Below, in pieces: positions 6,219 through 30,262 of a stretch of 32,706 nt of DNA (position 1 is the first letter of the stretch; each line of letters opens with the position of its first letter). The notes beneath the pieces are model-generated. The model saw only the letters and a program-made list of their open reading frames with translations. It was not told where the DNA came from and did no database searches. The translations under genes were made by a program, and so were the position numbers. The stretch covers positions 1-32,706 of IMG/VR virus record IMGVR_UViG_3300042480_000340; one strand, given 5' to 3'. Source of the DNA: a virus.

Positions 6219-6895
6219 TTACAGCCCTTCATTGCGATATTCAAAAACTCAGCACGGGCAGCAGGATCGTTCTTGAATCCACCACCAAGACGGCTTGTGA
6301 CTGTGCTACTACCTGTATCCTCTACACCACGACTCTTCACACAATAATGTTGTGCATCAATCATTACAGCAACATCTTCTGTGCCTAGGATGAATTGTAA
6401 TGTGTGGAAGATTTGTTCTGTGAGGCGTTCTTGAATCTGTGGACGCTTGCTGAAGTATTCAACGATTCTGTTGATCTTGCTGAGTCCCAATACTTTATCC
6501 TTAGGTACATATGCTACTGTAGCAAGACCATCGATGACAACAAAGTGATGTTCGCAGTTGCTTTGTACATTGACATTACGCTCAACGACCATCTCGTTAT
6601 ACTTCATCTTGTTATCGACCGTAGTACACTTAGGGAACGAATCATAATCTAGTCCCCAGAAAATCTCATTGACATACATTTTAGCGACACGCTTGGGTGT
6701 ATCGATCAAACTGTCATCGGTCAAGTCTAATCCTAAAGCCCTCATGATCTCAGCAAAGTTACCTTCGATGATATCAATCTGTTCTTTACGATCTAGATTG
6801 CGCTTTTTGATTGGGGTTTCAACACCCATTTTGACTAGGTGTTCATGAACCTGTTTGCCAAGTTCTGGGTCTGTTTTTGTCTTATTGTATGACAT
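6215..6895 (-). CDS. folE: GTP cyclohydrolase I
   Basis: Converts GTP to dihydroneopterin triphosphate, the first step of both folate and 7-deazaguanine synthesis. The zinc ligands C114 and H117 (CEHH) and C185 (HYCVKSRG) are present, and the 71-residue distance between the two Cys equals that of E. coli FolE (C110, C181). The catalytic His is present in AQHYC, and the TGSSTVTSRLGG segment is typical. Length 226 fits the family. AAGGAG lies before the ATG, and the 14-nt gap from the upstream gene holds only that ribosome site. With queD and queE it makes a 7-deazaguanine supply line. Confidence 0.95.
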   Translation of the reverse strand: MSYNKTKTDPELGKQVHEHLVKMGVETPIKKRNLDRKEQIDIIEGNFAEIMRALGLDLTDDSLIDTPKRVAKMYVNEIFWGLDYDSFPKCTTVDNKMKYNEMVVERNVNVQSNCEHHFVVIDGLATVAYVPKDKVLGLSKINRIVEYFSKRPQIQERLTEQIFHTLQFILGTEDVAVMIDAQHYCVKSRGVEDTGSSTVTSRLGGGFKNDPAARAEFLNIAMKGCK

Positions 6896-6910: not shown

Positions 6911-7660
6911 TTACACGGATATGTTAAATTTTGCATTGATATGCGGTAGAACTATTTGTTCTGCGAACCCTTTAAACTGTTCTCTACTTGGATGAGTAGC
7001 CCTGTATCGAACTTCTAGATTACTATGATTTCTTAAATGCTCGGGCAAACATGCGAATCCAGAATTCAAACACCAGTCCCAACATGTTTTGACTGGTAAG
7101 AAATTACTCCAGTCTATCATATCGTAAAGATGTTTAACGTTTGGATGCTTCATCATAGATTCTTCAGGTAAACCTGCTTCATTAAATATAGACATGAAGT
7201 ATTTTACGTTGACAGATTTAAGATACCACTGAGTCCTCACTATATGTTCTAATGCATATATGCAGGAACCTACAGGGTCATAGTAGTTTTTGATATAAGA
7301 GATTGTATAGTTATCTTCTTCCCAGGGACGCAGGGAAACCCAACAACCTTCATCGTTGTCTATGAAACGAAATGTGAATCTAGACTTAAATCTATCTGTA
7401 TCACTGTGATAATTTTCTAGCCTATGAATGCTAGACCACATCACGCCTACTAATAGTTCTTGGGGATTAGATGATTTCAGAGCAGTCTCTACACCGTGAA
7501 TGACGGATCGACTGATGTACCCATTACCTGCACCGTTAACGGCATAATTATATAAGGGTAGGTTTAAAGATTCGGCTACATAGTTTGGCCAAGCGATTCT
7601 GCCTTCAGTAGGAATACCCTCAGTAAAACTACAACCACTTACTATTAACTTTTCTAACAT
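6911..7660 (-). CDS. SGNH-hydrolase-like protein (copy 1)
   Basis: Has the SGNH/GDSL layout: a first strand ending in SGCSFTEG with the candidate nucleophile S11, an NGAGNGYISRS segment that may give the Gly and Asn, and a C-terminal HPSREQF with the candidate catalytic His. Such enzymes are esterases or acetyl-ester hydrolases acting on lipids or glycans. It is a clear paralogue of the next gene upstream (7729-8472) and resembles three more in this window. AAGGA lies before the ATG behind a perfect late octamer at 7720. The true substrate is unknown, and a non-catalytic binding role is possible. Confidence 0.65.
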   Translation of the reverse strand: MLEKLIVSGCSFTEGIPTEGRIAWPNYVAESLNLPLYNYAVNGAGNGYISRSVIHGVETALKSSNPQELLVGVMWSSIHRLENYHSDTDRFKSRFTFRFIDNDEGCWVSLRPWEEDNYTISYIKNYYDPVGSCIYALEHIVRTQWYLKSVNVKYFMSIFNEAGLPEESMMKHPNVKHLYDMIDWSNFLPVKTCWDWCLNSGFACLPEHLRNHSNLEVRYRATHPSREQFKGFAEQIVLPHINAKFNISV

Positions 7661-7719: not shown

Positions 7720-7727
7720 TATTTATA
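7720..7727 (-). promoter_or_regulatory. T4-type late promoter TATAAATA
   Basis: A perfect TATAAATA octamer on the minus strand, one base after the stop of the upstream gene. A start near 7714 would give a 54-nt leader with the AAGGAAGGA ribosome site of the SGNH copy 1 gene. There is no other use for this 68-nt gap. Confidence 0.7.
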
Positions 7728-7728
7728 T

Positions 7729-8472
7729 CTAACTGATATAACCCTTACTTTTTAAATGGGGCAATATCACCTTATCTACAAACATCTTACTAATAGCAGG
7801 CGTAGGATGCTGTGTTTCATCGAACTTCATACCTTCTCTTTTACCCCAATCATACATGTTCTTTATGGGTAGAACGTTACTATAATCTATCTGATCGCGC
7901 AGATATTTTACGTCTGTATGATTATTATATTTCAAATAATCATCACCGTCTAAACTGTCGTAGTTATATGTAGTGAAAAAATATTTGATATTGTGCATTT
8001 TTAAGAACCATTGAATGCGCAAAATATTTTCTATAGTGTTTATGTACAGACCTATATCATCATAATAATGTTTATAATAAATCTGACTTAATTCATCACT
8101 CCAGCCCGGATGCATCAGATAATTATTCTGTTCAGCACCTACGCTACACGGTTGGCTGTAATACCAGTTGGTTGATTTGTGCGGATCCCACTGATAATAA
8201 TCTACAGGTTCATGCGTCAGATATACAGACTTTCTAGATACTCCCGACCACATCACTCCCACTAGTAGATTTTCAGGTTTGTACTTTTGCACAGTCAAGC
8301 ATTGATTGACTCTGAAGATCACACGTTTAGAAATAATGTCGTTACCTGTGCTACCTGCACCGTCAAAAAAAGCCTGCATGTCTAATGCATCACGCAAGAA
8401 TACAGGCCAGTTATCGCCGGGTACTTGTGTGAAACTGCAACCTGCTGATATCAATATTCTAGGATTTGCCAT
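7729..8472 (-). CDS. SGNH-hydrolase-like protein (copy 2)
   Basis: Paralogue of copy 1, with [12 protein letters not shown] (S13 as candidate nucleophile), an [13 protein letters not shown] segment, LLVGVMWSG in the middle exactly as in copy 1 (LLVGVMWSS), and a C-terminal HPTPAISKM with the candidate His. The gene starts inside the last codons of guaC (14-nt overlap) with no clear ribosome site of its own, so translational coupling is likely. Function in glycan or lipid ester chemistry is inferred only from the fold-like motifs. Confidence 0.65.
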
Positions 8473-9487
8473 TTACAAAAACACCATTATACTGTTGCGT
8501 TACGCGGACAAAAGTCGTACACTTGCTAAGATTTTTTAATGTATGCGCACCTACATACGTACATGTGCTACGGATACCTCCCAGTAAATCTAGTACTGTG
8601 TTATTAACAGGACCACGATATGGGACTACGACCGTTCGCCCTTCGCTACTACGATAACTTGCTATACCGCCGTTGTGCTTGTTCATAGCAGTATCAGAAC
8701 TCATTCCATAGAATGTAATTTTTCCATCTTCTACGGTGCCGCCACCTTCGTCATGTCCGGCTAACATACCACCAAGCATGACGAAATCTGCCCCTGCGCC
8801 AAATGCTTTAGCCACATCGCCTGGGCAAGTACACCCGCCATCAGCAATGATATGTCCCCCAAGCCCATGCGCCGCATCGCTACACTCAATGATCGCACTA
8901 AGTTGCGGGTAGCCAACCCCAGTTTGTATCCTAGTTGTACATACCGATCCTGGCCCGATTCCGACTTTAACAATATCTGCTCCTCGTAGTATCAATTCTT
9001 GTGTCATATCTGCGGTAACAACGTTACCTGCAATGATTGTACAATGCGGAAATGCTTCGCGCACTTCTTCTACATAATCACCGAAATGATCGCTGTATCC
9101 ATTGGCAACATCTATGCAGATAAAATGAATCTCAGGATAACTATTGATGATACGGCTTAGTCTTTGAAAGTCTTTCTCATTAGTACCTGTGCTTACTGCT
9201 AGATGATTACCACCGATCTTGCCGATCGTATCAGAAAACTGATCTTCAGTATATGACTTAACAAGGCATGTGAACATACGATGTTCATATAATGCTTCAG
9301 CCATTCCTAGAGTACCTACACCATCCATGTTAGCGGCCATGACTGGAACACCTGTCCATTCAAAACCGCTATGCTTGAACTTGTAAGTACGATTCAAATC
9401 GACTTCTTTACGACTAGATAGTGTGCTACGCTTGGGGCGTATCAATACATCCTTGAAGTCTAACTTGATATCTTCTTCGATACGCAT
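8459..9487 (-). CDS. guaC: GMP reductase
   Basis: Reduces GMP to IMP and ammonia with NADPH. The sequence matches E. coli GuaC over nearly its whole length: [20 protein letters not shown] at the start, CIDVANGYS (124-132), AGNVVT (153-158), [13 protein letters not shown] with catalytic C183, [11 protein letters not shown] and LGGMLAGH. Length 342 against about 347 and the GuaC-type start separate it from the longer IMP dehydrogenases, which also carry CBS domains. AAAGG lies 8 nt before the ATG. A phage copy would draw guanine nucleotides back to IMP, possibly balancing pools after host DNA breakdown or guanine release by the DpdA-like enzyme. Confidence 0.95.
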
Positions 9488-17537: not shown

Positions 17538-20243
17538 TCATCCAAAACTAAACAAATCATCAAATGTCGAATTGGTGTCTGTGTTCTCTTCTAGTTCCCA
17601 ATTCAACACTCCTAGAAGGTTATCGATCTTTTTATCGACCAATGTTTTTTCCATAGCACTATCATCGAATGGTAGTTCTATGAACCAGTTTGGTAATCGC
17701 AATTCATCAGTGGGATATGCTATGCTTGTGAAGTTCAACGGATTAGGCTTTAGTTTACATACCACTACCTTCATACCATCGACCATCTTCATGCTATAGT
17801 TGTCACCATTTACACGGCGTAGATAATTCCAGTTCAATGCCGCGCGAACGTGTCCGGGCATATTAGCCTTACCTGTCTTACTATTTGCTTCAAGATCACC
17901 ATATGTAGTTAAGTTGTTGACACTCTTGGGCGAACCCTTAGTCCAACTATCTTGCTTACCAAGTTCGATCTTGAATTGCTTGATGCGTTCAATGACATCC
18001 TCTCTAGTCTTACCTGCGAGGACCATCTCAAGCACTTCAAACAAGAAGTCTTGCACATACTTGGGAGTATCTGCTCGTTTCAAGTCAAGACCCATAGCCT
18101 TGATCTTGCCTTGCTTCCCATCTTTGTCTAGTCGCTTACCTTCTTTATCATAGATGTTGATAGCATAACGCTTCTTAGTGATGAACAAACTACGATCACC
18201 GACAAGTTCTCGACCACCTTTGATAACGCTTAATTTGCGGGGCACATGAAATGACCGTTCCATGAAACTGGGGAAGCCTTCGTTGACTTGATCAGCGACA
18301 CTATCATATAGAGCAACAGCCAAATCTTTATTGAATTCGACTTCGTTATTAGCGATCTGTTCTTTTAAAATAGGATACGCGCTAAAGTAACATGAGTCAG
18401 TATCACCATAAACGATTGAATCACCAGTATGATCATACTTGCCTGCAATGATCTCATTGATATGCGAACTCATATGTTTCACAATCTGGCGACCACTCAA
18501 TGTGACGCTCTGACCTATGCGCTTATCATAGAAACGACAATGCTCGTTCAACAATGCACCATATGCAGAGTTAAGCAAAATCTTGCGAACCAATTGACGC
18601 TTATCCCAGTATTCGATATCTTCTTTCGTTTTGCTCTCTTTTAACTTCTTCTGCATGTCTTTACGATCACTATACCAGCGTGTCAATAGTCCTGGGATCA
18701 CGCCTTCTTGATCGCTACGGAAGATAGTACCATTCGCGCTCAAGATATATGGCTTGTTGCTGTCAAAGATCAATTTCCATACTTCTGCCGCAGACATCTC
18801 TACGCTCTCGCCACTCTCAAAGTCAACTGTGAGCATAGTACCACGCTCTTGATTCATGACTGCTTCATATTCAAGACTGCCGAACAAGCCTTCCCAAAGC
18901 AACGAACTCATCTCAAGATCATCATCTTCGTCATAGCGTTTCTTTTCGCTTGCTAATCTTCGTGCTTTCTCAGTGAGGTGATGCTCAGTCAATGTAGGAC
19001 GCAATTGTGCAACGATAGTCTCGGGAGCCATGTTCAATGAACGAATGGCGCTAGGATACAGACTGTTGATATCGATAGCAGCCACATATTCGTGTATGCC
19101 TTTCTTTGGCACAGCGACATATGCACCGGCTGCAGCCATATCACTTTCTTTTGCATTTCTCTTTTTATCAGGAACCATCATGCCGCGCTCATGCGCTTCG
19201 TTCATGATAGCCATCTCAATCATCGCTACTGAACCCATGACTGTTGGCAACAGTACTGTATTCTCATGCGCTAGTGCGTTAGCAAGATCAAGGAACTTGA
19301 GTTTGTTGTGGATCTTTACAAGCAACATAGTATCCTGTCTGTTGTATTCAATAAACTTCTTGAAGTCCTTGTTATAGAGTTGGTCAAGAGTACCTTCATA
19401 CTGTGTCTTATTCTCACCGACTTCCATCTCACCGATGAAATCTAGTTTATAACTGTGACGGCTTTCGTAGTTGTACTTCTTATACAACTGTAGATAGTCC
19501 ATATGAATACGACCAACAAGGTCATATGTCACTTCTTCTTTGCCGAAACGTTCATATGTCCTTGATTTAGGAGTCTGCCCAAGCAAGCAGAATTTGCGTG
19601 TATCATCTTTGCTCATGATACGTGTGACACGATTGACCATGTAGGGTATATCGTATCCTTCTGAGTTCCAGCCTGTGAGTACGTCTGCATCTTTGATCAA
19701 CTCAAAGAATGTCTCAAACATCTCAATCTCTGACCTGAACAATATAGTATTACCTAAGTCAGTAGTCAAGTCATGCGCAGTTTCATCGCTCATGTGCTTG
19801 GGCGGGATAGCAAGTGTGACAAGTGTATCTTGCCAATCCAAGTACATTGAGATAGCCGTGACCGGATTGAAAGGATCACTCGTTGGACTAAAGCCCTTCT
19901 CTGGGTCAAAGTCTACCTCAATGTCAAAGAAACATGTATGGAGTTTTGGAGGCTCACTGCCTAAGTAGTTTTCACTTAGACAGCGGAACACCACATTGAT
20001 GTCCGATTCAAACAGTTTCTTATTGCTGTGGATTCGTTTTTCTTTTTCGAACTCAGTACGCTTTCTTGTGCTGAAGCGTGATATGGGATCGCCATATATA
20101 CTGCGATATTTACCCTTAGGGTCAGTATAATACAAAGTATAGTTGGCAGGAAACTCGTTGTATGTGCGCTTGCCGTCAGGCTGTCGCTCTACGACAAATA
20201 TCCTGTCGCTGTCTCTATCGTGAATCGCGTCAACGTAACTCAT
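17538..20243 (-). CDS. 43: Family B DNA polymerase (gp43-like)
   Basis: Replicative polymerase with 3'-5' exonuclease, 901 residues like T4 gp43 (898). Exo I FFDIEV (D107, E109), Exo II GWNSEGYDIPY (191-201) and Exo III EYNRQD (299-304) are intact. Polymerase motif A is DINSLYPSAI (D391), motif B KILLNSAYG (554-562), motif C VYGDTDSCYF (D614, D616), and a late TKKRY follows. The C-terminus TFDDLFSFG is a good clamp-binding tail. The gene overlaps the upstream SGNH gene by 14 nt with only a weak AAAGA site. No intein or intron is visible. Confidence 0.97.
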   Translation of the reverse strand: MSYVDAIHDRDSDRIFVVERQPDGKRTYNEFPANYTLYYTDPKGKYRSIYGDPISRFSTRKRTEFEKEKRIHSNKKLFESDINVVFRCLSENYLGSEPPKLHTCFFDIEVDFDPEKGFSPTSDPFNPVTAISMYLDWQDTLVTLAIPPKHMSDETAHDLTTDLGNTILFRSEIEMFETFFELIKDADVLTGWNSEGYDIPYMVNRVTRIMSKDDTRKFCLLGQTPKSRTYERFGKEEVTYDLVGRIHMDYLQLYKKYNYESRHSYKLDFIGEMEVGENKTQYEGTLDQLYNKDFKKFIEYNRQDTMLLVKIHNKLKFLDLANALAHENTVLLPTVMGSVAMIEMAIMNEAHERGMMVPDKKRNAKESDMAAAGAYVAVPKKGIHEYVAAIDINSLYPSAIRSLNMAPETIVAQLRPTLTEHHLTEKARRLASEKKRYDEDDDLEMSSLLWEGLFGSLEYEAVMNQERGTMLTVDFESGESVEMSAAEVWKLIFDSNKPYILSANGTIFRSDQEGVIPGLLTRWYSDRKDMQKKLKESKTKEDIEYWDKRQLVRKILLNSAYGALLNEHCRFYDKRIGQSVTLSGRQIVKHMSSHINEIIAGKYDHTGDSIVYGDTDSCYFSAYPILKEQIANNEVEFNKDLAVALYDSVADQVNEGFPSFMERSFHVPRKLSVIKGGRELVGDRSLFITKKRYAINIYDKEGKRLDKDGKQGKIKAMGLDLKRADTPKYVQDFLFEVLEMVLAGKTREDVIERIKQFKIELGKQDSWTKGSPKSVNNLTTYGDLEANSKTGKANMPGHVRAALNWNYLRRVNGDNYSMKMVDGMKVVVCKLKPNPLNFTSIAYPTDELRLPNWFIELPFDDSAMEKTLVDKKIDNLLGVLNWELEENTDTNSTFDDLFSFG

Positions 20244-20859
20244 TCTTTATTCTATTATAAATTTGTTCTGCTTGCAACCTGTTGCTTTCCATACCGGGAT
20301 GCCTGCCGTCTAATGCATAGTCATCCATTATCAATATCATATCCCAGAAATTTTTTAGATTCAGTGTGCTAGGTGGTCTTTCTTGACAACCATCTTGTAC
20401 ACCATGAAAATAAAAATTCTTTATATTTCTTGAGGTCAGATACAACTCTACGTGCTGTATGGCTAACCAATTGTACCAATAATATTTTTCTTTCAAGAAA
20501 GGCTCATCGATCTCGGACATTATCAATCTTTTATGCTCAGGCGTGTCCTTGTTAATCAACGTAGCGTTTCCTTCTGACATATCATTAAATTGATGACAGA
20601 AATACCTATCAAAATATGAGAAGGCAGTGATAACTATATCGTCAGGATATAGTTCTGCTTTAAGAACCTTCATCATGATCGCTAGATTACCTATACCAGC
20701 ATTGGCTAGGTTGACACACTCTATTCCCAGTTTATTAGCGACCATGTTGGGCCAGCCCAACTTGCTAGGTGTCAGTGCCGGGAGATTAGGGGGTATATGA
20801 CAATCTGGTAGTGCGTGTCCATATACAAAAGAACACCCGAACGTCACTAATCTAGGCAT
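20230..20859 (-). CDS. SGNH-hydrolase-like protein (copy 4)
   Basis: Begins MPRLVTFGCSFVYGHALPD with S10 as candidate nucleophile, then GWPNMVANKLG and NAGIGNLAIM (Gly/Asn block), VITAFSYFDRY and a C-terminal GRHPGMESN with the candidate His. At 209 residues it is the shortest of the five. GAGGG lies 6 nt before the ATG. Its place between a membrane protein and the polymerase suggests early or middle expression from the promoter before dsbA rather than a virion role. Confidence 0.65.
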   Translation of the reverse strand: MPRLVTFGCSFVYGHALPDCHIPPNLPALTPSKLGWPNMVANKLGIECVNLANAGIGNLAIMMKVLKAELYPDDIVITAFSYFDRYFCHQFNDMSEGNATLINKDTPEHKRLIMSEIDEPFLKEKYYWYNWLAIQHVELYLTSRNIKNFYFHGVQDGCQERPPSTLNLKNFWDMILIMDDYALDGRHPGMESNRLQAEQIYNRIKNELR

Positions 20860-21472: not shown

Positions 21473-21721
21473 CTATTGATATTTCAGTTTTAGGAACATA
21501 TATTCCTCTTCTTTCATGGAAATGATTGCATCTTTGGAACTTGTGAGTTTTACTTTATAACCAAATGTTTCAAACTTCCTAAGTACTTGCGTTTTTATCT
21601 CTTCGGGTCTAGTCTTAGAAAAATTAGTAACTAGATAGTTCCTGAATTCAGGATCCATACTATCCACCTTTTCATAGATATAAGCCCATAACCATTGATT
21701 TTTATTTAGGCTGACTAGCAT
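21473..21721 (-). CDS. Hypothetical protein, 82 aa
   Basis: A small Lys/Trp/Tyr-rich protein starting MLVSLNKNQWLWAYIYEKVD. It overlaps the end of tilS by 20 nt and has no clear ribosome site, so translation is probably coupled. The end (MKEEEYMFLKLKYQ) and the DPEFRNYLVTNFSKTRPEE centre show no domain I know. Confidence 0.55.
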   Translation of the reverse strand: MLVSLNKNQWLWAYIYEKVDSMDPEFRNYLVTNFSKTRPEEIKTQVLRKFETFGYKVKLTSSKDAIISMKEEEYMFLKLKYQ

Positions 21722-22301
21722 CTAGGATTAATTTTTTGATGACTTTCTCAATACCGGGATTGACATGATATACATGCTCGACCATATGCTTCCTAATATA
21801 GTTTCGCATGTACTTGTCGTCATGATTAGACTTGTCTTCTCTCCACTCTAACCCTTTACGCATACACCAGTCAATGAATTCTTGTTTGGGATTTAGCAAG
21901 AAAGGTCTGTGTACATTTTTACGTGTATCGGGAATAACTTTAGGTTCTCCGTGCATAGCAGACCAAATATATGTCTCAATGCAGTCGTTCAAATGATGAC
22001 CAGTGACAACATATTCAAATTGTTCTAAGAAACGATAACGCTCATTGCGCCAGTGTTCTTCCCAACTATGATCTTTGGGTTTTTCGTTACGGATATAACC
22101 AATATGTAATGAGATGTTTCTACTACTACAATGATGGAAAACAAAGTCGTAAGCATTGTCGCTGGCTTCAGTACCGTGATGAAAAAATGCCGCATCAACT
22201 TCATGATTGTTGCTCAGAAAATCTAAGATGGCAACGCTATCCACACCACCGCTAAATGCGACAGTGATTTTTCGAGGCAACTTATGAAGTAATTGGATCA
22301 T
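21702..22301 (-). CDS. tilS: TilS-like tRNA(Ile)-lysidine synthetase, short form
   Basis: An N-type PP-loop ATPase: FSGGVDS at 16-22, then TGHHLNDCIETYIWSAMHG as in the TilS ATP/substrate region, and RPFLLNPKQEF, LEWREDKSN and YMRNYIRKHM, the classic TilS motif for the tRNA end. TilS joins lysine to C34 of tRNA-Ile(CAU) so it reads AUA. It has 199 residues against about 320-430 in bacteria, lacking the C-terminal tRNA-binding domains. It is not QueC. It sits behind a sigma70 promoter whose predicted start is the A of the ATG, with no proper ribosome site. Confidence 0.8.
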   Translation of the reverse strand: MIQLLHKLPRKITVAFSGGVDSVAILDFLSNNHEVDAAFFHHGTEASDNAYDFVFHHCSSRNISLHIGYIRNEKPKDHSWEEHWRNERYRFLEQFEYVVTGHHLNDCIETYIWSAMHGEPKVIPDTRKNVHRPFLLNPKQEFIDWCMRKGLEWREDKSNHDDKYMRNYIRKHMVEHVYHVNPGIEKVIKKLILDASQPK

Positions 22302-22302
22302 A

Positions 22303-22322
22303 CCTATATTATACGATATAGG
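22303..22322 (-). repeat. Inverted repeat over the -10 of the tilS promoter
   Basis: CCTATAT and ATATAGG are perfect 7-bp arms separated by 6 nt. They enclose the -10 TATAAT and end just before the ATG. A repressor site or a hairpin are both possible. Confidence 0.55.
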
Positions 22323-22336
22323 ATATGGATTTGCAA
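22308..22336 (-). promoter_or_regulatory. sigma70 promoter (TTGCAA-17-TATAAT) before tilS
   Basis: TTGCAA at 22331-22336 and a perfect TATAAT at 22308-22313 on the minus strand, spacer 17. The expected start, 7 nt past the last -10 base, is 22301, the first base of the tilS ATG. A leaderless transcript is predicted. Confidence 0.7.
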
Positions 22337-22339
22337 CTT

Positions 22340-22723
22340 TTATTGGAAAATGTGGTGATTCTTTTCGCCGTAAATCTTGATGTATTTTCCGGCTAGCATA
22401 TCTGCCATGCTCTCGACTGGGCTGCCGGGATAACTGTCCCCGTGATCGACCATGTCTAATTCACCCTGACGAACGTGAACCAATTCATGAAATACGGTGC
22501 GTAATATGTCTACAAGGTTTCGATTTTTAGCATAAACCCAAATAGTATCTCCACCGATCATATGCCCACCGGTATGATGGTTATTCTGGGCTTCTTCCGT
22601 ATCCATGCTTAATTCAATCTTGGGCGGATCGCTAATATTGAGTTTGCCGCATGCCCACTTAGCAAATTTATTTACTTCGCTAGGTATGTCTGCTCTGGAT
22701 CTGACGAAATCTTCTGTGCGCAT
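22340..22723 (-). CDS. Zinc metallopeptidase-like protein, 127 aa
   Basis: Zincin motif FHELVHVRQ gives H79-E80-x-x-H83, and PVESMADMLAG offers E104 as third ligand. This small single-domain layout matches a metallopeptidase family I recall in marine T4-like phages; the natural substrate is unknown. The N-terminus (MRTEDFVRSRAD) vaguely resembles the head-targeting starts elsewhere but has no good cleavage site. No Shine-Dalgarno site is present; a TATAAATA octamer sits exactly 6 nt before the ATG, so a leaderless late transcript is likely. Stop lies before the tilS promoter. Confidence 0.75.
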   Translation of the reverse strand: MRTEDFVRSRADIPSEVNKFAKWACGKLNISDPPKIELSMDTEEAQNNHHTGGHMIGGDTIWVYAKNRNLVDILRTVFHELVHVRQGELDMVDHGDSYPGSPVESMADMLAGKYIKIYGEKNHHIFQ

Positions 22724-22728
22724 TGTAG

Positions 22729-22736
22729 TATTTATA
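22729..22736 (-). promoter_or_regulatory. T4-type late promoter TATAAATA, leaderless position
   Basis: A perfect octamer on the minus strand whose last base is 6 nt above the first base of the ATG at 22723. In T4 the octamer spans -13 to -6, so the start would be the A of the ATG. It overlaps the stop codon of the upstream SGNH gene. Confidence 0.6.
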
Positions 22737-23511
22737 CTTTGTACCCTTTGGCAACCATAGCATCACGTATCAATAATGCTAACTGCATATGTCCTTGAAT
22801 TCCCGGATGTGGATCTTCGCCACTCACCCTACCATACTCCCAAAATGGTTTAGCATGGTGTAATTTAGGATCTCTGATATCGTCTAACACGTTGAAGTTA
22901 TTGTATAACGCATCCCTGTGATGTTCGGGCCAATTATGCCATAAATGACTTTGATGCCAAATATAAAATTCTTTCACCCCAAAAGCATCAAACATTCCTT
23001 TGAGTGCATAAGCATAACTGATAGTTCTATAAAAATCTTCTATAGGATGAGTTTCTGATATCTTTCTTGTAGCCTCTTCCCTGAGTTCTCGCAATCTTCC
23101 TAGGCTTCTATGATGCCTATCGTAAGTATATTGTATGTCTGTGCAAACTACATCGATCTTACAATTAACCCAGTAAGCCTGATTATCTTCCCATGCTTCT
23201 TTAGTACTGAGTGGATCATATTTTTCAAATCTAGACCACTCAGTAAATTGAATCACAGCAACAGTCCGCGCTAATTCTTCGGGTGTTTTGCTTAACAACC
23301 AATTATAAGTTTTTCTTAATACACGTTGATTACTTCCACAACCGTTAGCAAGGTTGTAAACTTCATCAGCATGTAATAATGACCCTAGGTGATGTGGCCA
23401 TAATAAAGAAAGCCTTCTATCATGGTCAGGTAAACCATTATGGGCATGAATAAAATGTGGTTCTAGTCCCCCACCCGCAGTCCAACTGCATCCATTAGTA
23501 TATAGTATCAT
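22732..23511 (-). CDS. SGNH-hydrolase-like protein (copy 5)
   Basis: Begins MILYTNGCSWTAGGG with S9 as candidate nucleophile, followed by NLANGCGSNQRVLRK (Gly/Asn block) and ending EDPHPGIQGHMQLAL, the clearest DxxH-like block V of the five copies. It is probably the most likely of the group to be an active hydrolase. No Shine-Dalgarno site is visible; AATAAATA lies exactly 6 nt before the ATG. At 259 residues it has an inserted His-rich centre (YDRHHRSLG, WHQSHLWHNWPEHH). Confidence 0.7.
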   Translation of the reverse strand: MILYTNGCSWTAGGGLEPHFIHAHNGLPDHDRRLSLLWPHHLGSLLHADEVYNLANGCGSNQRVLRKTYNWLLSKTPEELARTVAVIQFTEWSRFEKYDPLSTKEAWEDNQAYWVNCKIDVVCTDIQYTYDRHHRSLGRLRELREEATRKISETHPIEDFYRTISYAYALKGMFDAFGVKEFYIWHQSHLWHNWPEHHRDALYNNFNVLDDIRDPKLHHAKPFWEYGRVSGEDPHPGIQGHMQLALLIRDAMVAKGYKV

Positions 23512-23516
23512 GTAGA

Positions 23517-23524
23517 TATTTATT
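23517..23524 (-). promoter_or_regulatory. Late-promoter-like AATAAATA, leaderless position
   Basis: The octamer differs from TATAAATA at the first base only. Its last base is 6 nt above the A of the ATG at 23511, the same geometry as at 22729 and 30255. Confidence 0.45.
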
Positions 23525-23530
23525 TACGTA

Positions 23531-24118
23531 TTATTTTGCTAATGGATTTTCCCAAGCCTTCTTGATCTTGTCGTCTACTTTTCTCTCAAGTTCCTTCAAT
23601 TTAGCATCTGACTCACGTTCTAGGGCTCTGATTCTATTCTGTAGATCACGCTCAGTATCACCTAAACGCTTATCGCTTTGATTCACAAAACCACGAGTAT
23701 CACGGTCTAACTCACGACCTCTACGCTCGGCTGCATCAACTGCCGCTTCGACACGATCTATATCCGCTTTTAGATCACTTCTGATACCGCGGGTCATGTC
23801 TTGATTCTGTTGAACCAGTATGACTAAACTTTCTTGACTCTTTTCTAACTTAGTCAATCGTGTCTCAATAGCAGTAAAATCAGGGCTTACATAATTAGCG
23901 ATAGCATCCTTCATGTTCATGTAATCTTTATAAAACTCAAACGTAGCATAAAGACCACCGAGTACTGTTGATAATATACCGGCTGCTATCATCAATTTAG
24001 CAGGGGTGAAATTATAACCACCTACGCTGATGACTGTGTTCTCACTTAGATATTTTTCTTTAGCCGCTTCAAGTTCATCTACTTTAGCGTCAATGTCTGT
24101 CTTCTTTTTATTTGTCAT
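23531..24118 (-). CDS. Membrane-anchored coiled-coil protein, 195 aa
   Basis: One transmembrane helix at about residues 40-61 (KLMIAAGILSTVLGGLYATF), then a long charged coiled coil from about 85 to 190 with Arg/Asp/Glu heptads. The short N-terminus is also helical and charged. AAGGAG precedes the ATG. It resembles a conserved protein of marine T4-like phages of unknown role. With the two secreted proteins upstream it may form an envelope-associated structure during infection, which is inference from the order only. Confidence 0.7.
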   Translation of the reverse strand: MTNKKKTDIDAKVDELEAAKEKYLSENTVISVGGYNFTPAKLMIAAGILSTVLGGLYATFEFYKDYMNMKDAIANYVSPDFTAIETRLTKLEKSQESLVILVQQNQDMTRGIRSDLKADIDRVEAAVDAAERRGRELDRDTRGFVNQSDKRLGDTERDLQNRIRALERESDAKLKELERKVDDKIKKAWENPLAK

Positions 24119-24132
24119 TTTTTATTTTCTCC

Positions 24133-24318
24133 TTAATCCCAGAAACCCTTTTTTGTTTCTTCTAAGTAGGCTTGGGTTCTTAATTTAATACTACTAGGTG
24201 ATGATGGTACACCCATATAGTTCGTTATGATCTCTCCCTTGCATCTTTCATATTCTTCTTTTTGCTCAGGTGTCATGTCCTTATAATCTTTAAATTCATA
24301 CCATTTTGGTTTTCTCAT
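24133..24318 (-). CDS. Small hypothetical protein, 61 aa
   Basis: A hydrophilic protein starting MRKPKWYEFKDYKDMTPEQ and ending TKKGFWD. The ATG overlaps the stop of the Pro-rich protein gene as ATGA. No domain recognised. Its place between two envelope-type genes suggests the same transcription unit. Confidence 0.6.
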   Translation of the reverse strand: MRKPKWYEFKDYKDMTPEQKEEYERCKGEIITNYMGVPSSPSSIKLRTQAYLEETKKGFWD

Positions 24319-26078
24319 TTGTATTGTGCCTCCACCATTTTATTATAAGTATCTGTGTTACCCTTTTCTAAAAAGTACATGCTACGCTTGTTGTCAGAAG
24401 GCACTTGATTTTTGTATATCTCTTTAGGTGCATAGAAAGATGTATCTCTCAATGCAAGTTGTAGATATGAATTATATCCTATAGGTTGCATCATCATTCT
24501 GTCTAAACTGATGCCCATAGACAATTCATTGTTTTGTGCATTTTTGTTTAATGGATTTTCTTTTTGCTCTGTGCTAGAACTATTATTAGTTTTTGTGTTG
24601 TTCTCTATGATTTCAGTCAATGGGTTAGCACGATTAGTTAAAAAATTGTTAGTGAATAAAACGTTCTCTACTTCTGCACTACGCAATCCAGTCATAGTAG
24701 TTGTTTGCACACTAGATGTTGATTGTGTAACTACCGGCTGTATCGATATCATAGATACCTGTGTGTCTATTGATTGTGCAGATTGATTGTTGTTTGAAAC
24801 ATTCTGTTGCACACTTGCATTATTACCCATCATGACTTGGTTATTAACTGCACCAAGATTTTGCTGAGTGTTAGATGCTAAAGGTATACCCTGAGCAAAT
24901 GAAGAACTTTGCACATTACTTTGTTGTGTTATACTAACTTGTTGCGTGGCTGCTTGTATGCTTGCATTAGACGATGTATTTGCTACTGACATAGCAGTTT
25001 GTTCTGTGGCTCGCACAGCAGATTGTGCTACATCATTAGCGGCTTGTACAGCAGTTGTAGCAATCGCTTGTTCTTTCTTTTCATTGTTCTTGATCATAGT
25101 CAGTATTGATGAAAGACTTGGTCCACCGGAAGTAGAACTACCTTGTTGTGGTGCAGAACCTGAACTTGCTACATTGTTTGATGAGCCAGGAGGAGGTTGT
25201 GATCCTGGTGGCGGCTGTGATCCAGACGGAGCCGGCTGTGATGATCCACTTGGTGGTGGCTGACTAGTAGATGCTGTAGTTGTAGTCGTACTGCCGGGTG
25301 GAGGAGGCTCAGAGCCAGGTGGGGGAGGTGAACTATATGCAATCTGTTGTTCTTGCTGTTTGGGTTCTGACTCCGGAGGCGGCTTGCTAAATGTATCTGC
25401 TATCTCTATAGGACTAGATGTTCCTGTGTTAGTTGTAGTTGTTGTAGGTGTAGGTGATGTTGATGTTTGCTTAACGCTATAATTCAATGATAAAGATATA
25501 TCTCGTACCCTAGGACCATAATAACCACTCCAAAAATTCATGTCACTACCCGTCCATGATATAGAAATGTCACCTAAAGAATTTAGTTGATATGGACTAC
25601 TAAAAGTTTCAGTGCCTGTAAAGGTCTGAAAGGTAGCACCGGTATTTGTCAAACTATAATCATAGTTGTAGTATTCTAAAACTTTTCCTGTATTATTTGT
25701 AAGACTGCCATATACGTTTAATGAACCTCTAGTTCCAGAAGGATTATTTAAATCATTATATATCTTCCAAGAGTAATTAAAACCACCTACACTTATACCT
25801 TGTCCGCTCAATACTGAATTGATCGCTATTATCTGACTTACTGTATACGGCATGTAACTAAAACGAATCGTATTAGTATCAGTGTTGAATGCTGGAGAAG
25901 GACCGCCACCAGTACCCTCTACTTGACCTAATTGAGTAGCATTCATGTAAATAACATTACCCCATTGTGTGGGATCCACCAAATTTGGTGTAGTCTGTAC
26001 ACTACCTGTATTGGTGTTTATGTTTTGCGCACAGACTACGTTACTAACTAGCAACAATAAGGCTAAGAGTTTTTTCAT
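24315..26078 (-). CDS. Secreted Pro/Ser/Gln-rich protein, 587 aa
   Basis: A clear signal peptide (MKKLLALLLLVSNVVCA, cut before QNIN) sends it across the inner membrane. Residues 29-200 look like a beta-rich domain with many Tyr, Ser and Gly; 231-299 are Pro-rich with repeated PPPGS; 300-490 are Ser/Gln/Asn-rich; and the last 60 residues (DRMMMQPIGYNSYLQLAL and onward) look like a conserved end domain. It starts at the TAATG overlap with the Asn-rich gene, so the two are translated together. I know the type from marine phages but not its function; an export or surface role is inferred. Confidence 0.75.
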   Translation of the reverse strand: MKKLLALLLLVSNVVCAQNINTNTGSVQTTPNLVDPTQWGNVIYMNATQLGQVEGTGGGPSPAFNTDTNTIRFSYMPYTVSQIIAINSVLSGQGISVGGFNYSWKIYNDLNNPSGTRGSLNVYGSLTNNTGKVLEYYNYDYSLTNTGATFQTFTGTETFSSPYQLNSLGDISISWTGSDMNFWSGYYGPRVRDISLSLNYSVKQTSTSPTPTTTTTNTGTSSPIEIADTFSKPPPESEPKQQEQQIAYSSPPPPGSEPPPPGSTTTTTASTSQPPPSGSSQPAPSGSQPPPGSQPPPGSSNNVASSGSAPQQGSSTSGGPSLSSILTMIKNNEKKEQAIATTAVQAANDVAQSAVRATEQTAMSVANTSSNASIQAATQQVSITQQSNVQSSSFAQGIPLASNTQQNLGAVNNQVMMGNNASVQQNVSNNNQSAQSIDTQVSMISIQPVVTQSTSSVQTTTMTGLRSAEVENVLFTNNFLTNRANPLTEIIENNTKTNNSSSTEQKENPLNKNAQNNELSMGISLDRMMMQPIGYNSYLQLALRDTSFYAPKEIYKNQVPSDNKRSMYFLEKGNTDTYNKMVEAQYK

Positions 26079-27229
26079 TACTCAAACCAGCCCTTACTCT
26101 TACCTTTAGGTACCTTTTTAGGATTTGCTTCCCACGATACTTTTGCTTCTTCACCGATCTTACCTTCATATGGACAAGGAGTTCCGGCTGCCATCATAGC
26201 ATCAAATACACGACGGTCTTGACACATAGCCGCTACAGCCGCTACTTTCATGCCCATGTCGTATAATGTCTTGGATAACTTTAAGCGTTCGCAATTCTCA
26301 TCACGTAATGTAGAACCAAAACTTATACCAAGAATCTGTGTCTGTGCCGCACCTGAAACACCCGTTGTACATAAGTCAGCATTACCACCTGACAACATTG
26401 CAGGAGCAATCGCTGTTGGTGGAGGTTGAATGACTTTCTGTGTGACAGTTGTTTCATTGATGTTGCGATTAGTCATCTCGCCTTGTTGTATGTTGACGTT
26501 TGTGTTACTGCTAACGTTGTTATTTGTATTAACATTGTTAGATGTTGAAGTGCTACTGTTGATGTTTCTGTTAGTCATATCACCGGTATTAACGTTAGTA
26601 TTGACGTTATTATTAGTGCTTGTGCTAGTAGAAACATTGTTGTTATTATTGGTAACACTACCGCTCATCACATTGTTATTAGTATTAACAGATGTGCTAG
26701 CATTGTTATTATTGTACGTCATAGTACCACTATTGATGTTATTGTTGGTATTGACGGATGTGCTAGCATTGTTATTGTTATAAGTCATAGTACCGCTGTT
26801 GACATTATTGTTATTATATGTCATAGTACCGGTATTAACATTGTTATTGTTATTAGTCATCGTACCATTGTTGGTATTTTGATTGATGTTAGTAACAGTA
26901 CCACTTTGAATGTTATTGTTTGTATTAACATTCGTTGATGTACTTGTGTTATTGTTATTATTGTTACTATTAACCGTACTAATGCTAGTACTATTATTAT
27001 TAGTAGTAGTCATGTTTGTAGTGTTAACACTACTGGTACTATTACTTGTGCTATTCGTATCAACTAAAGAGGTAGTTGTATAACCTCCTTGGTTGATAGG
27101 AGTAGTGGTACTAGTTGTCGTGCCACCACTAGTAGCCTGAGTGCTTGTATTTGTTGTGGTTTGTGCATATGCCGGAACGCTGCCTATAAAGGCAGCGATT
27201 GTGGCCAACACAAGGATCTTTTTTATCAT
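26078..27229 (-). CDS. Secreted Asn/Thr-rich repeat protein, 383 aa
   Basis: Signal peptide MIKKILVLATIAAFIGSVPAYA, cut before Q23. Residues 60-262 are Asn, Thr and Ser repeats, with a 22-residue unit (SGTMTYNNNN, ASTSVNTNNNIN) seen twice at 145-188 and looser copies around it. The end domain (280-360) is conserved-looking with four Cys (C287, C313, C336, C352) and the segment RDENCERLKLSKTLYDMG; two disulfides in the periplasm are plausible. Repeats of this kind can form beta-solenoids or curli-like fibres. AGGGA lies 9 nt before the ATG, below a hairpin and a late-type octamer. Confidence 0.75.
   Translation of the reverse strand: MIKKILVLATIAAFIGSVPAYAQTTTNTSTQATSGGTTTSTTTPINQGGYTTTSLVDTNSTSNSTSSVNTTNMTTTNNNSTSISTVNSNNNNNNTSTSTNVNTNNNIQSGTVTNINQNTNNGTMTNNNNNVNTGTMTYNNNNVNSGTMTYNNNNASTSVNTNNNINSGTMTYNNNNASTSVNTNNNVMSGSVTNNNNNVSTSTSTNNNVNTNVNTGDMTNRNINSSTSTSNNVNTNNNVSSNTNVNIQQGEMTNRNINETTVTQKVIQPPPTAIAPAMLSGGNADLCTTGVSGAAQTQILGISFGSTLRDENCERLKLSKTLYDMGMKVAAVAAMCQDRRVFDAMMAAGTPCPYEGKIGEEAKVSWEANPKKVPKGKSKGWFE
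26444..26977 (-). repeat. Degenerate coding repeats for the Asn-rich tract
   Basis: Runs of AAC/AAT codons and GTMTYNNNN-type units repeat through about residues 85-262. The copies differ at synonymous sites, so the protein repeat is kept while the DNA repeat has decayed. Confidence 0.75.
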
Positions 27230-27244
27230 TTTTATTGTTCCCTG

Positions 27245-27282
27245 TATAAGCCGAAGAGGTTTTACCTCTCGGTATGCTTATA
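27245..27282 (-). promoter_or_regulatory. 5' leader stem-loop before the secreted-protein genes
   Basis: An inner stem CCGAGAGG/CCTCTTCGG (one bulged T, loop TAAAA) at 27251-27272 is enclosed by outer arms TATAAGC and GCTTATA (27276-27282 and 27245-27251). It lies 16 nt or more above the ATG. No T-tract follows, so a terminator is unlikely; a stabilising or regulatory leader hairpin fits better. Confidence 0.6.
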
Positions 27283-27288
27283 TTTATG
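27281..27288 (-). promoter_or_regulatory. Candidate late promoter CATAAATA
   Basis: Differs from TATAAATA at the first base only. A start near 27275 would place the inner hairpin at the very 5' end of the mRNA for the two secreted proteins. Confidence 0.45.
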
Positions 27289-27316
27289 CGGAAACAGTGT
27301 AAAAAAGACTCAGCAG

Positions 27317-27508
27317 TTAACGGCGGCGATTGCTAGCGAGGGTTATCAACTTCTGCATGTTGTCAAACAAATCAGGATCTAAACTATATAGGTCTTGCAC
27401 CCACTGTTTTAAATCTATTTTTCTTAAATTGCGGCGTATGTCTGCCGCCTCACGATCATAGATGTCTAAGTCATCCCATTCGTTTTTTGGTTTATCATGA
27501 TCGTGCAT
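27317..27508 (-). CDS. Hypothetical protein, 63 aa
   Basis: I chose ATG 27508 (MHDHDKPKNEWDDLD) because GGAG lies 7 nt upstream; ATG 27532 and the frame to 27589 lack a site and run deeper into the upstream gene. The protein is acidic in its first half and basic at its end (ASNRRR). It overlaps the upstream gene by 14 nt. No domain recognised. Confidence 0.6.
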   Translation of the reverse strand: MHDHDKPKNEWDDLDIYDREAADIRRNLRKIDLKQWVQDLYSLDPDLFDNMQKLITLASNRRR

Positions 27509-27692
27509 CCAAGAACTCCAACTGTCCGTCATTGAATATATGTAGCATGCCGGGATAGTCAGCAAACTCAAACACATATCTAATATCACCGCGAGTAGTA
27601 ATCGCAGTACCTACAATCACACCGGCTGCCTGATATGTGCCACCTACTTTTTGTACCTTGTCACCTATTTTAAATTTAAAATCAGTTGTCAT
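27495..27692 (-). CDS. SH3-like small protein, 65 aa
   Basis: FKIGDKVQKVGGTYQAAGVIVG at the start (5-26, in part) and MLHIFNDGQLEFL near the end look like a small SH3-like barrel found in many T4-like phages. The binding partner is unknown. AAAGGA lies 6 nt before the ATG. It overlaps the upstream stop by 4 nt. Confidence 0.7.
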   Translation of the reverse strand: MTTDFKFKIGDKVQKVGGTYQAAGVIVGTAITTRGDIRYVFEFADYPGMLHIFNDGQLEFLDARS

Positions 27693-27922
27693 ACGTAATC
27701 CTTTAGTCCAAAATGTGCGCGAATCTTATCACCGTAACTTTTATAGGGATAACTGCTATCTTGTTCAGCAATCTTTGCACACTCTTCAATAATATTTTCA
27801 GCGAACCTTTGTAATCTCTCTGAGTTCACTTCGGGGTAAGTGCTACCGCCGGTCTGTAAAGCAATCTCATAGACCTTGTTGGTCATGCCTTTTGGTTTGT
27901 GTCTGTTGTAATCGTAGTTCAT
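27689..27922 (-). CDS. Hypothetical protein, 77 aa
   Basis: The ERLQRFAENIIEECAKIAE segment (35-53) and the HFGLKDYV end resemble a small protein common in tailed phages; function unknown to me. No Shine-Dalgarno site exists. A sigma70-like promoter ends exactly 7 nt above the A of the ATG, and two perfect inverted repeats fill the region above it, one of which includes the start codon. This gene is probably under tight early control. Confidence 0.65.
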   Translation of the reverse strand: MNYDYNRHKPKGMTNKVYEIALQTGGSTYPEVNSERLQRFAENIIEECAKIAEQDSSYPYKSYGDKIRAHFGLKDYV

Positions 27923-27940
27923 GATACTATTTTATCATGA
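27919..27940 (-). repeat. Inverted repeat over -10 and start codon
   Basis: TCATGATA and TATCATGA are perfect 8-bp arms with a 6-nt centre. The -10 TAAAAT lies mostly in the centre and the ATG in the downstream arm. An operator, or a hairpin hiding the start, is possible. Confidence 0.6.
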
Positions 27941-27956
27941 ATATTGAAAATGTCAA
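27929..27956 (-). promoter_or_regulatory. sigma70 promoter (TTGACA-16-TAAAAT), leaderless position
   Basis: A perfect -35 TTGACA at 27951-27956 and TAAAAT at 27929-27934 on the minus strand. The expected start is 27922, the A of the ATG of the 77-aa gene. Confidence 0.65.
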
Positions 27957-27960
27957 TATT
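27940..27960 (-). repeat. Inverted repeat over the -35
   Basis: AATATTGA and TCAATATT are perfect 8-bp arms with a 5-nt centre that contain the -35 TTGACA. It abuts the second repeat at 27940, so the whole gap is palindromic. Confidence 0.6.
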
Positions 27961-28413
27961 TTATTTGCACCAACTCTGCTTTGCTTCACCATAATACTCA
28001 CGGGCATAACCCTTATTGATGAGTAACATGCGTAAACTCTGGCCATCGATGATGACATCGCCCAATACACGACCACCATACTTGTCCCAATCCATTAGTA
28101 CAATTTGTAGTTTCTGTGCTTTGGATATGCTATCTTTAGTGAAGTTAGTAGCAGCCTTGCCCAATAAATCTTCGCTCTGACATTGTGCGCGGTGTCCCTT
28201 CTCAGGAGTATCGACACCGAATACACGAATACTAAGTTCTTTCTTTAGTGGATCTGGTAAGAAGGGTGCTTGGAAAGCAACAGTATCACCGTCTATCACA
28301 CGCAAGATAGTTGCGTCATAAGTTACACCGGGCTTTTGTTTTTGAGCAAAGGCATCAGTAACACTTAGTGCAAGTGTTACAGATAATAAAAAACCTACGA
28401 TCTTACTTGTCAT
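27961..28413 (-). CDS. Secreted staphylococcal-nuclease-like thermonuclease
   Basis: A signal peptide (MTSKIVGFLLSVTLALSVTDAFA, cut before Q24) is followed by one SNase domain. RVIDGDTV (38-45), R63, D68 and E71 in IRVFGVDTPEK, and R115 in GGRVLGDV keep the exact spacing of the SNase catalytic set R35-D40-E43-R87. It is a calcium-dependent nuclease type that would act in the periplasm or outside. I chose ATG 28413, with GGTGA 6 nt upstream; 28416 is equally possible. It overlaps the CTS protein gene by 11 nt. Roles could include degrading incoming DNA or releasing nucleotides. Confidence 0.9.
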   Translation of the reverse strand: MTSKIVGFLLSVTLALSVTDAFAQKQKPGVTYDATILRVIDGDTVAFQAPFLPDPLKKELSIRVFGVDTPEKGHRAQCQSEDLLGKAATNFTKDSISKAQKLQIVLMDWDKYGGRVLGDVIIDGQSLRMLLINKGYAREYYGEAKQSWCK

Positions 28414-28789
28414 CATAGTCACCGGCGAATCCTGACATATAACGATCACCCTTAATCTTCATGTCTGGTTTAGCGGCTGCTTGTGCATTGATAACTGACA
28501 TCAATCCTTCTAGGCTCTCTATCGCCTTATTCTGCATCATCTCTTTTTCTTGAGGCTTAGCGGTCATGTATTTCTTAACGAATGTAACAATATCCGGAAT
28601 ATCAAGCATATGCTTGCTACCATCTTTGAATCTAAATTCGTAATTACCGTCTGTGTCTACGGCTTTGCGCATCTGCATTAGTATGTGAGGAATCTTATCT
28701 AGATCAGCATCCTGCGCAGGGGCATCGTCTTCATCGTCCCAGTCGTTTTGGGGACGCTTTTTCGCTTCAATAACTTCAAAAATCTTCAT
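28403..28789 (-). CDS. Hypothetical protein with capsid-targeting-like start, 128 aa
   Basis: The first residues MKIFEVIEAKK resemble the T4 internal-protein targeting sequence (MKTYQEFIAE cut before A), with VIE/A as the cleavage-like site. An acidic linker (NDWDDEDDAPAQDADLD, 15-31) and a helical domain follow. The protein may be packaged in the head and freed by the prohead protease. GAGG lies 7 nt before the ATG, and a late-type GATAAATA is 26 nt above it. No enzymatic motif is recognised. Confidence 0.65.
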   Translation of the reverse strand: MKIFEVIEAKKRPQNDWDDEDDAPAQDADLDKIPHILMQMRKAVDTDGNYEFRFKDGSKHMLDIPDIVTFVKKYMTAKPQEKEMMQNKAIESLEGLMSVINAQAAAKPDMKIKGDRYMSGFAGDYDDK

Positions 28790-28814
28790 GTCTAATCCTC
28801 ACAATAGTATTATG

Positions 28815-28822
28815 TATTTATC
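28815..28822 (-). promoter_or_regulatory. Candidate late promoter GATAAATA
   Basis: Differs from TATAAATA at the first base only. A start near 28809 gives a 20-nt leader with a GAGG ribosome site, in the 60-nt gap before the CTS-bearing gene and the nuclease gene. Confidence 0.45.
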
Positions 28823-28849
28823 AAGCCACTAATTATAACATGGATCTTG

Positions 28850-29674
28850 TTACTTCAACTTAGTTTTGGTAACCTTCTGTAATAGTGCCCAGGCCTCTTC
28901 TTCTTTTCCGGCTGCTATGAGTTTCTTCATCAAAGCCCATAATTCAGGGCTAGCGATTTGCTTGAATTTTATCATTTCCATGGCCCCTAGATTACCCACA
29001 TATGACGCTTCATTTGTTTTTTTCTGGCTTCCGATCCATTCTTTTGCGGCAGGTCTTGTTGGAGGTTCTGCGACAAATTGCTTTAGTCTACTATATGTTT
29101 TGTTGATCTGTTCCTCTGTCGCTTCTCTATCGCCGCTGTTGTCGATAATGCTTAGAAATTTAAATATATTAGCAAAACGACCTATATTGTCCTGAACATC
29201 ATACCAACTATTAGTCACTATTTTATCAGGAACAGTTCTTGATCTCATTTGATTGCGTTGTCTTGCTACGTCAAGTTTGGTGTTCACTACCACTAGATAA
29301 CAATCATATCCTAGTTGTTCAAAATTCTTTTTAAGATTGGCAATCTTATCATAATCATCGCCGGTACCGTCTATATGAATACCTAGTCTACCCTCAAGTG
29401 CAAGATCACTTTTTTTGCTTGTGATCTGTTTGGCTCTTGCTCGTACTGTGTCACGCTTTTCTTTTTCTTCAGGGGGCATCTTGGGATCGATGTCGTGTTT
29501 CTTCATCATGTATTCGAATGCTACGTCACTATTGATTGTGACCAAACCCATAGCATTCAGTCCTAAACGGTCTGATACATAACTCTTGCCGCTGCCAGGG
29601 CCACCGATAACAAATACTACCTTAAAGATAGCAGGGTCGTTGATACCTTCTTGTACGAATTCACTTGCTCTCAT
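28850..29674 (-). CDS. Zeta-toxin-like P-loop kinase with capsid-targeting-like start
   Basis: Walker A GGPGSGKS spans 24-31; TINSDVAFEYM (47-57) and HIDGTGDDYDKI (100-111) fit the zeta toxin/polynucleotide kinase layout, and an Arg cluster (R138, R140, R144, R146) fits the lid. The first residues MRASEFVQE are followed by G, like the T4 capsid targeting sequence. The last 55 residues (YVGNLGAMEMIKFKQ and onward) are a separate helical module that I recall at the ends of phage structural proteins. It could phosphorylate a nucleotide sugar or nucleic acid; packaging into the head is inferred. ATGA overlaps the upstream gene. Confidence 0.7.
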   Translation of the reverse strand: MRASEFVQEGINDPAIFKVVFVIGGPGSGKSYVSDRLGLNAMGLVTINSDVAFEYMMKKHDIDPKMPPEEKEKRDTVRARAKQITSKKSDLALEGRLGIHIDGTGDDYDKIANLKKNFEQLGYDCYLVVVNTKLDVARQRNQMRSRTVPDKIVTNSWYDVQDNIGRFANIFKFLSIIDNSGDREATEEQINKTYSRLKQFVAEPPTRPAAKEWIGSQKKTNEASYVGNLGAMEMIKFKQIASPELWALMKKLIAAGKEEEAWALLQKVTKTKLK

Positions 29675-30249
29675 TTCACACCTATCTTCATATATCTTGT
29701 GTAACTTGTTTCTGGATCTGTAAAATCTTTACTACCTAAATAATTTACTTTACGCATTGGAAATAAATCTGTAAATTGTTCTAGGTCTGCTATTTTTGTT
29801 ACTGCCCCGCTTGCTTGGTCTCTTCCTTGAACTATCACTCTATATCCATCTGGTACTACATTATACCAAGTGGACTTCATGTCATTGACACTAGTATTGA
29901 TTATGATTCCGGGCTTGTCATATATCACATCTCTAGCATCAGTATTTAAAAATATCAACTTCCCCGGTTTAAAAAATGGTTTCAGCAACTCGTGGCTAGT
30001 TTCAAGTTTATCTTCGTCATTTTCTACTAATACGATATGATCAAATATCACACCTTCTTTTTGCAATAACATAGCAAGGTTACCATACCAACTACCTAAT
30101 ATATAGATAGTTCTAGCGCATTTCCCGCCTAATCCTTCTTTTAATTTTTTGCATAACCAAGTCTTGCTTTGTATAAGATCATCCGTGAAGCTACCTTCCA
30201 GTGTGTCCGGGCTTGATTCTTCTATTTCTGCAAATTCTACGATACGCAT
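29671..30249 (-). CDS. Methyltransferase-like Rossmann protein with capsid-targeting-like start
   Basis: IYILGSWYGNLAMLLQ (48-63) looks like the SAM-binding loop of a class I methyltransferase, though the usual GxGxG reads GSWYGN, and IVLVENDEDKLE (72-83) like its acidic ribose-binding strand. The catalytic part is not identified. The N-terminus MRIVEFAEIEES may be another targeting sequence (IEE before S). There is no ribosome site; GATAAATA is exactly 6 nt above the ATG. It overlaps the kinase gene by 4 nt. Enzymatic activity is uncertain. Confidence 0.6.
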   Translation of the reverse strand: MRIVEFAEIEESSPDTLEGSFTDDLIQSKTWLCKKLKEGLGGKCARTIYILGSWYGNLAMLLQKEGVIFDHIVLVENDEDKLETSHELLKPFFKPGKLIFLNTDARDVIYDKPGIIINTSVNDMKSTWYNVVPDGYRVIVQGRDQASGAVTKIADLEQFTDLFPMRKVNYLGSKDFTDPETSYTRYMKIGVK

Positions 30250-30254
30250 TATAT

Positions 30255-30262
30255 TATTTATC
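30255..30262 (-). promoter_or_regulatory. Late-promoter-like GATAAATA, leaderless position
   Basis: Differs from TATAAATA at the first base only. The last base is 6 nt above the A of the ATG at 30249. There is no Shine-Dalgarno site between. Confidence 0.45.

Follow-up and report, generated by a model that had tools for sequence, protein, structure and literature searches.

The 32,706-nucleotide (nt) stretch analysed here (the window) is part of the IMG/VR virus contig IMGVR_UViG_3300042480_000340 and carries, ahead of five genes on the minus strand, promoters that end a few nucleotides before the start codon. Judged from the placement of such promoters, the phage and its relatives very probably make systematic use of T4-type late promoters, and more rarely of sigma70 promoters, to produce leaderless mRNAs. 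A large minority of the T4-type late promoters (NATAAATA), together with fewer host-type sigma70 promoters, would start transcripts at the A of the AUG or 1–3 nt before it. The resulting predicted leaderless mRNAs would be translated through recognition of the 5′-AUG, without a Shine–Dalgarno (SD) sequence, and the remaining late genes of the same phages would retain a leader. This reading is built on the observed promoter spacing, the bimodality of the octamer-to-ATG distances, the lack of SD sequences, conservation in orthologues, agreement with the +1 position and restriction to particular lineages.

The gene starts in the window were called mechanically. The promoters and genes concerned are the following (aa, amino acids):

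22729..22736, minus strand: TATAAATA late-promoter octamer, ending 6 nt upstream of the ATG (22723); contains the stop codon of the upstream gene
22340..22723, minus strand: 127-aa gene, predicted leaderless late; no SD, no Pfam or PHROG match
23517..23524, minus strand: AATAAATA octamer, ending 6 nt upstream of the ATG (23511)
22732..23511, minus strand: 259-aa gene, predicted leaderless late; weak DUF6071 match
30255..30262, minus strand: GATAAATA octamer, ending 6 nt upstream of the ATG (30249)
29671..30249, minus strand: 192-aa gene, predicted leaderless late from octamer spacing; no SD
22308..22313, minus strand: −10 box TATAAT for tilS, ending 7 nt upstream of the ATG (22301); −35 box TTGCAA at 22331–22336, spacer 17
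21702..22301, minus strand: tilS-like PP-loop gene, predicted leaderless early; PF01171, E 2.4e-32
27929..27934, minus strand: −10 box TAAAAT for the 77-aa gene, ending 7 nt upstream of the ATG (27922); −35 box TTGACA at 27951–27956, spacer 16
27689..27922, minus strand: 77-aa gene, predicted leaderless early from promoter spacing; no SD
28815..28822, minus strand: GATAAATA octamer, ordinary leadered late promoter, 26 nt before the ATG at 28789; gene with SD GAGG
27281..27288, minus strand: CATAAATA octamer, leadered, 52 nt before the ATG at 27229; gene with SD
7720..7727, minus strand: TATAAATA octamer, leadered, ending 60 nt upstream of a gene with SD (7660) and followed after 4 nt by an out-of-frame ATG

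The five promoter-to-ATG distances given in the original prediction were all exact when checked on the minus strand: the late octamers TATAAATA, AATAAATA and GATAAATA are each directly followed by N5-ATG (ATG at 22723, 23511 and 30249, respectively), and the two sigma70 promoters read TTGCAA-N17-TATAAT-N6-ATG (tilS) and TTGACA-N16-TAAAAT-N6-ATG (77-aa gene). It also holds that these five genes have no SD, while many other genes in the window carry one. All six NATAAATA octamers of the window lie on the coding strand. In three of them the last base is exactly 6 nt ahead of a gene ATG, as had been predicted; the other three (7727, 27288, 28822), on the same strand and not mentioned in that prediction, stand upstream of SD genes at 60, 52 and 26 nt and are leadered.

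The distribution of octamer-to-ATG distances had been set beforehand as the refuting test. Each ATAAATA on both strands was paired with the first ATG opening an open reading frame (ORF) of at least 60 codons, so that an AUG start was a built-in condition of the count, and distances were classed as near (5–9 nt), gap (10–15 nt) or far (16–50 nt). The scan gave a sharp near peak and an almost empty gap, both lineage-specific. The pooled near/gap/far counts were 50/1/71 for the window clade, which comprises four contigs (G003 7/1/14; G004 11/0/13; G005, 335 kb, 29/0/37; G006 3/0/7), and 22/2/50 for three SAR11/OM43 phages, referred to below as pelagi- and methylophages (HTVC008M 12/0/9; Mosig 7/2/21; Melnitz 3/0/20). 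The outgroups gave 2/9/142 (T4 0/4/26; Syn9 0/1/18; Slickus01 0/2/21; Atu_ph07, 398 kb, 2/0/46; RaK2 0/2/31). The peak lay at exactly 6 nt in HTVC008M (9/12) and Mosig (6/7), and at 5–6 nt in the window clade. A near-empty gap is expected if the leader is either absent or long enough for a ribosome site. The systematic leaderless use of late promoters that had been proposed is thus matched by a strong near class, for part of the late promoters only: the near share of octamers with a readable gene was about 41% in the window clade (3/6 in the window) and about 30–41% across the phages with a leaderless class, as against 2/153 usable sites in the five outgroups.

A chance origin of the near class was ruled out by permuted-heptamer controls and by the outgroup phages. 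At exactly 6 nt, ATAAATA (an A5T2 heptamer) scored 22 hits in four genomes and each of its 20 other permutations at most 5; one-sided Fisher tests against the pooled permutations gave p values of 1.5e-22 (G005), 3e-10 (HTVC008M), 6e-7 (G004) and 3e-4 (G003). Bimodality was found again in a second, partly independent set of 160 further loci (2.25 Mb), which were fetched by bS21 and portal similarity and deduplicated by protein start and which contributed 73 + 81 near-class genes.

SD content separated the two classes. In the window clade an SD preceded 0/50 near genes as against 33/71 far genes; in the second set the values were 1/154 and 81/172. The genes concerned include structural ones: octamers precede portal, baseplate wedge, virion structural and tail-fibre genes in G005 and G003; the near class of G005 itself contains the portal, a baseplate wedge subunit and three tail-type proteins, and the genes at 6 nt in HTVC008M include a baseplate wedge subunit, the DNA end protector and the tape measure protein.

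The position of the near-class ATGs also agrees with a putative +1 signature. The T4 late octamer occupies −13 to −6 relative to the transcription start (PMC1524935). Leadered promoters show an enrichment of A 6 nt past the octamer in T4 (0.62), RaK2 (0.61), Atu_ph07 (0.78) and the pelagi- and methylophages (0.76), and 5 nt past it in the window clade (0.56); this A probably marks +1. Near-class ATGs track each lineage's own putative +1, for they lie mostly at 6 nt in HTVC008M and Mosig and at 5–6 nt in the window clade, as the A does.

Placement is kept where the flanking sequence diverges, though to a different degree from gene to gene. For the 127-aa gene, ATAAATA stands 6 nt from the ATG in all seven orthologues with a readable start (59–100% aa identity), and all seven heptamer positions are invariant. 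Four relatives with about 52% aa identity share the octamer spacing of the 259-aa gene; one of them has CTAAATA. The octamer of the 192-aa gene is missing from its orthologue in L022 (84% identical), so turnover does occur. The region of the 259-aa gene (22732–23511) is one of four paralogue-looking ORFs in the window (with 6911–7660, 7729–8472 and 20230–20859) that have a GCSF/GCSW-type motif at the start; they appear SGNH-hydrolase-like by eye, and one matches DUF6071.

Leaderless use had been proposed for early and late promoters alike. The late part is strong; the early part appears real but is rarer and less certain. Both sigma70 cases in the window look like good promoters by sequence. 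The best −10 hexamer of tilS ends at a distance of 7 nt in 19/26 and of 8 nt in 4/26 orthologues (52–100% aa identity, window phage included), and the TTGAC...TAAAATAATATC context of the 77-aa gene is retained in L022. TATAAT at 7 nt gave 11 hits in the window clade over a background of about 2–3 per position, a modest excess that was not seen in the outgroups.

Several observations weigh against the leaderless reading. Enrichment is weak for Melnitz taken by itself (3 genes, p = 0.05). In some relatives the portal gene belongs to the near class, but in many others it has CTAAATA at 13–27 nt; since the distance of its promoter varies among relatives, the leaderless state appears labile. About half of the window-clade near genes (24/50) directly follow a co-directional ORF ending within −40 to +10, and translational coupling could contribute at such genes. 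Several searches by profile or sequence found no gp55-type late sigma in G003–G006; for this clade the octamer-to-start rule is therefore taken from relatives, though the A at 5 nt supports it. The gp55 family was found in T4, Syn9, RaK2, Atu_ph07, HTVC008M, Mosig, Melnitz and Slickus01; in G003–G006 the late sigma may be very divergent or replaced, or the contigs may be incomplete. Finally, we infer transcript 5′ ends and the mode of translation from promoter position. As a separate observation, the portal orthologues (L414–L493) carry either ATAAATA at 5–10 nt (mostly leaderless) or CTAAATA mostly at 13–27 nt, often with a short leader devoid of an SD, and offer a natural series in which the evolution of leaders of different length can be followed.

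The run of co-directional genes bears on an unlikely explanation by compaction, in which the promoter overlaps the upstream stop codon (TAA in ATAAATA, as in the octamer at 22736), the downstream cistron is translated by coupling or reinitiation, and leaderlessness is a by-product without function. The 24 near genes just described fit it, but the remaining half have no such upstream ORF. Coupling cannot account for the divergent leaderless pairs of G005 (46337/46382 and 275648/275709), because these have no upstream cistron to couple to. Moreover, other TAA-containing heptamers give no comparable peak, and T4, RaK2 and Syn9 are compact too, yet lack a near class. The same gene runs, which hold about half of the near genes, would also suit a reading of the near-ATG octamer as a translation-level signal (an AU-rich ribosome or S1 site in transcripts that begin farther upstream), given that the octamer is AU-rich and occupies the usual place of the SD. 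We consider this improbable: within these genomes the same octamer is also found 16–50 nt ahead of genes with an SD, and the outgroups have it at T4 distances, with an A at the T4 +1; a signal of this kind would yield neither the near-empty gap at 10–15 nt nor a lineage-specific offset of 5 or 6 nt, and other A5T2 heptamers are not enriched.

That the called ATGs are wrong, the true start being a downstream in-frame codon with an SD, is a thought to which the mechanical start calls give rise, but it is hardly credible. Such an SD-bearing start within the first 25 codons was found in just 3/50 near genes (7/71 far genes) and in none of the three leaderless late genes of the window; homology to the orthologues begins at residue 1, and the ATGs at 6 nt in HTVC008M are the GenBank-annotated starts of the coding sequences in 9/9 cases. 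Leaderless transcription from the octamer thus remains the preferred reading. As the AUG of such a gene has no SD, read-through from upstream genes would translate the cistron poorly, and expression would depend on the firing of its own promoter; the leaderless design would also economise intergenic DNA.

A ribosomal protein may be relevant to translation. The bS21 gene (PF01165) was present in all five sufficiently sequenced phages of the leaderless class (G004, G005, HTVC008M, Mosig, Melnitz) and in 3/12 phages without that class, which for seven of the twelve was judged from pattern counts only. The HTVC008M protein reportedly enters E. coli ribosomes; expression of phage bS21 coincides with that of the late genes, and the protein was proposed to favour phage transcripts (PMC9723584). 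It is conceivable, if doubtful, that phage bS21 and leaderless late mRNAs form one system, in which, late in infection, bS21 replaces the host protein by the 30S anti-SD and shifts initiation towards SD-less phage mRNAs with a 5′-AUG; the link stays tentative because there are few leaderless phages, in two groups whose members are related to one another. That bS21 suffices for the leaderless class was ruled out, Atu_ph07, Phosso and a Vibrio phage having bS21 without it. An octamer 38 nt upstream of bS21 was rejected as a late promoter, being coding sequence (I-N-I codons) of the upstream gene. That conserved gene, ending in ..INI..VLEPKxxL, precedes bS21 and overlaps its ATG by ATGA in 48/54 loci (G005 L122:5962–6183; L334–L413), and translation of bS21 is probably coupled to it.

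The window phage is also present in the 77,860-bp contig G003. Its DNA polymerase B has relatives at 79–93% identity in many environmental contigs, including the 335-kb G005; the nearest cultured phages are jumbo members of the T4 superfamily, for example Atu_ph07 (47% identity), Phosso, XaC1, GAP32 and RaK2. A GMP reductase-like gene (8459–9487) has its closest cellular matches in Pelagibacteraceae (66–68% aa identity), with a Rhodospirillales bacterium and many Bacteroidota coming next; host assignment from this gene was discarded as too weak. A host-level check for leaderless placement of TATAAT in a 400-kb SAR11 sample showed no clear peak. In the whole genomes of four alphaproteobacteria, TATAAT-N6-ATG was about 1.5- to 2-fold more frequent than the reversed control, and no such excess was seen in a second SAR11 genome. 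Elsewhere in the window, 24315–27229 encodes two Asn/Thr/Ser-rich repetitive proteins that look signal-peptide-bearing, in a stretch with stronger AT skew. A preQ0-type deazaguanine pathway, which might serve DNA modification, is possibly encoded at 2049–6895, where weak radical-SAM (QueE-like), PTPS/QueD-like and GTP cyclohydrolase I genes lie.

Phage mRNAs that lack a leader tend to be regarded as isolated cases, and the textbook example of SD-led translation in phages is the late expression of T4. The lambda cI transcript from PRM, which starts at the A of the AUG and has no SD, serves one regulatory gene; the phages described here share the predicted start and the lack of an SD, but for dozens of genes, those for the portal, baseplate wedge and tail fibres among them. 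phiKZ, likewise a large phage, has genome-wide leaderless late mRNAs, made by its own multisubunit RNA polymerase from a different motif, whereas here the T4-type octamer is used. The octamer, and the A 6 nt past it, are shared with the T4-type late promoters (TATAAATA, gp55/gp33/gp45), and the T4-type polymerase switch is presumably shared where gp55 is present (pelagiphages, methylophage). The giant phage AR9, a relative of phiKZ, has leaders of 26–491 nt (PMC5312081). Several leaderless-class phages resemble the described phage bS21 systems in encoding bS21; as the main text of that study contains neither 'leaderless' nor 'promoter', a leaderless mRNA feature was not proposed there (PMC9723584). 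No report of leaderless late mRNAs in T4-superfamily phages was found in the literature searched, subscription papers lying outside its scope.

The cultured phages HTVC008M, Mosig and Melnitz make the leaderless reading testable now. If confirmed, it would give phage bS21 a concrete mRNA feature to act on and would bear on gene-start prediction in environmental phages and on the exploitation of SD-poor hosts. It would also mean that widespread freshwater and marine T4-like phages, including cultured phages of SAR11 and OM43, run a large share of their late genes, some virion genes among them, from leaderless mRNAs.

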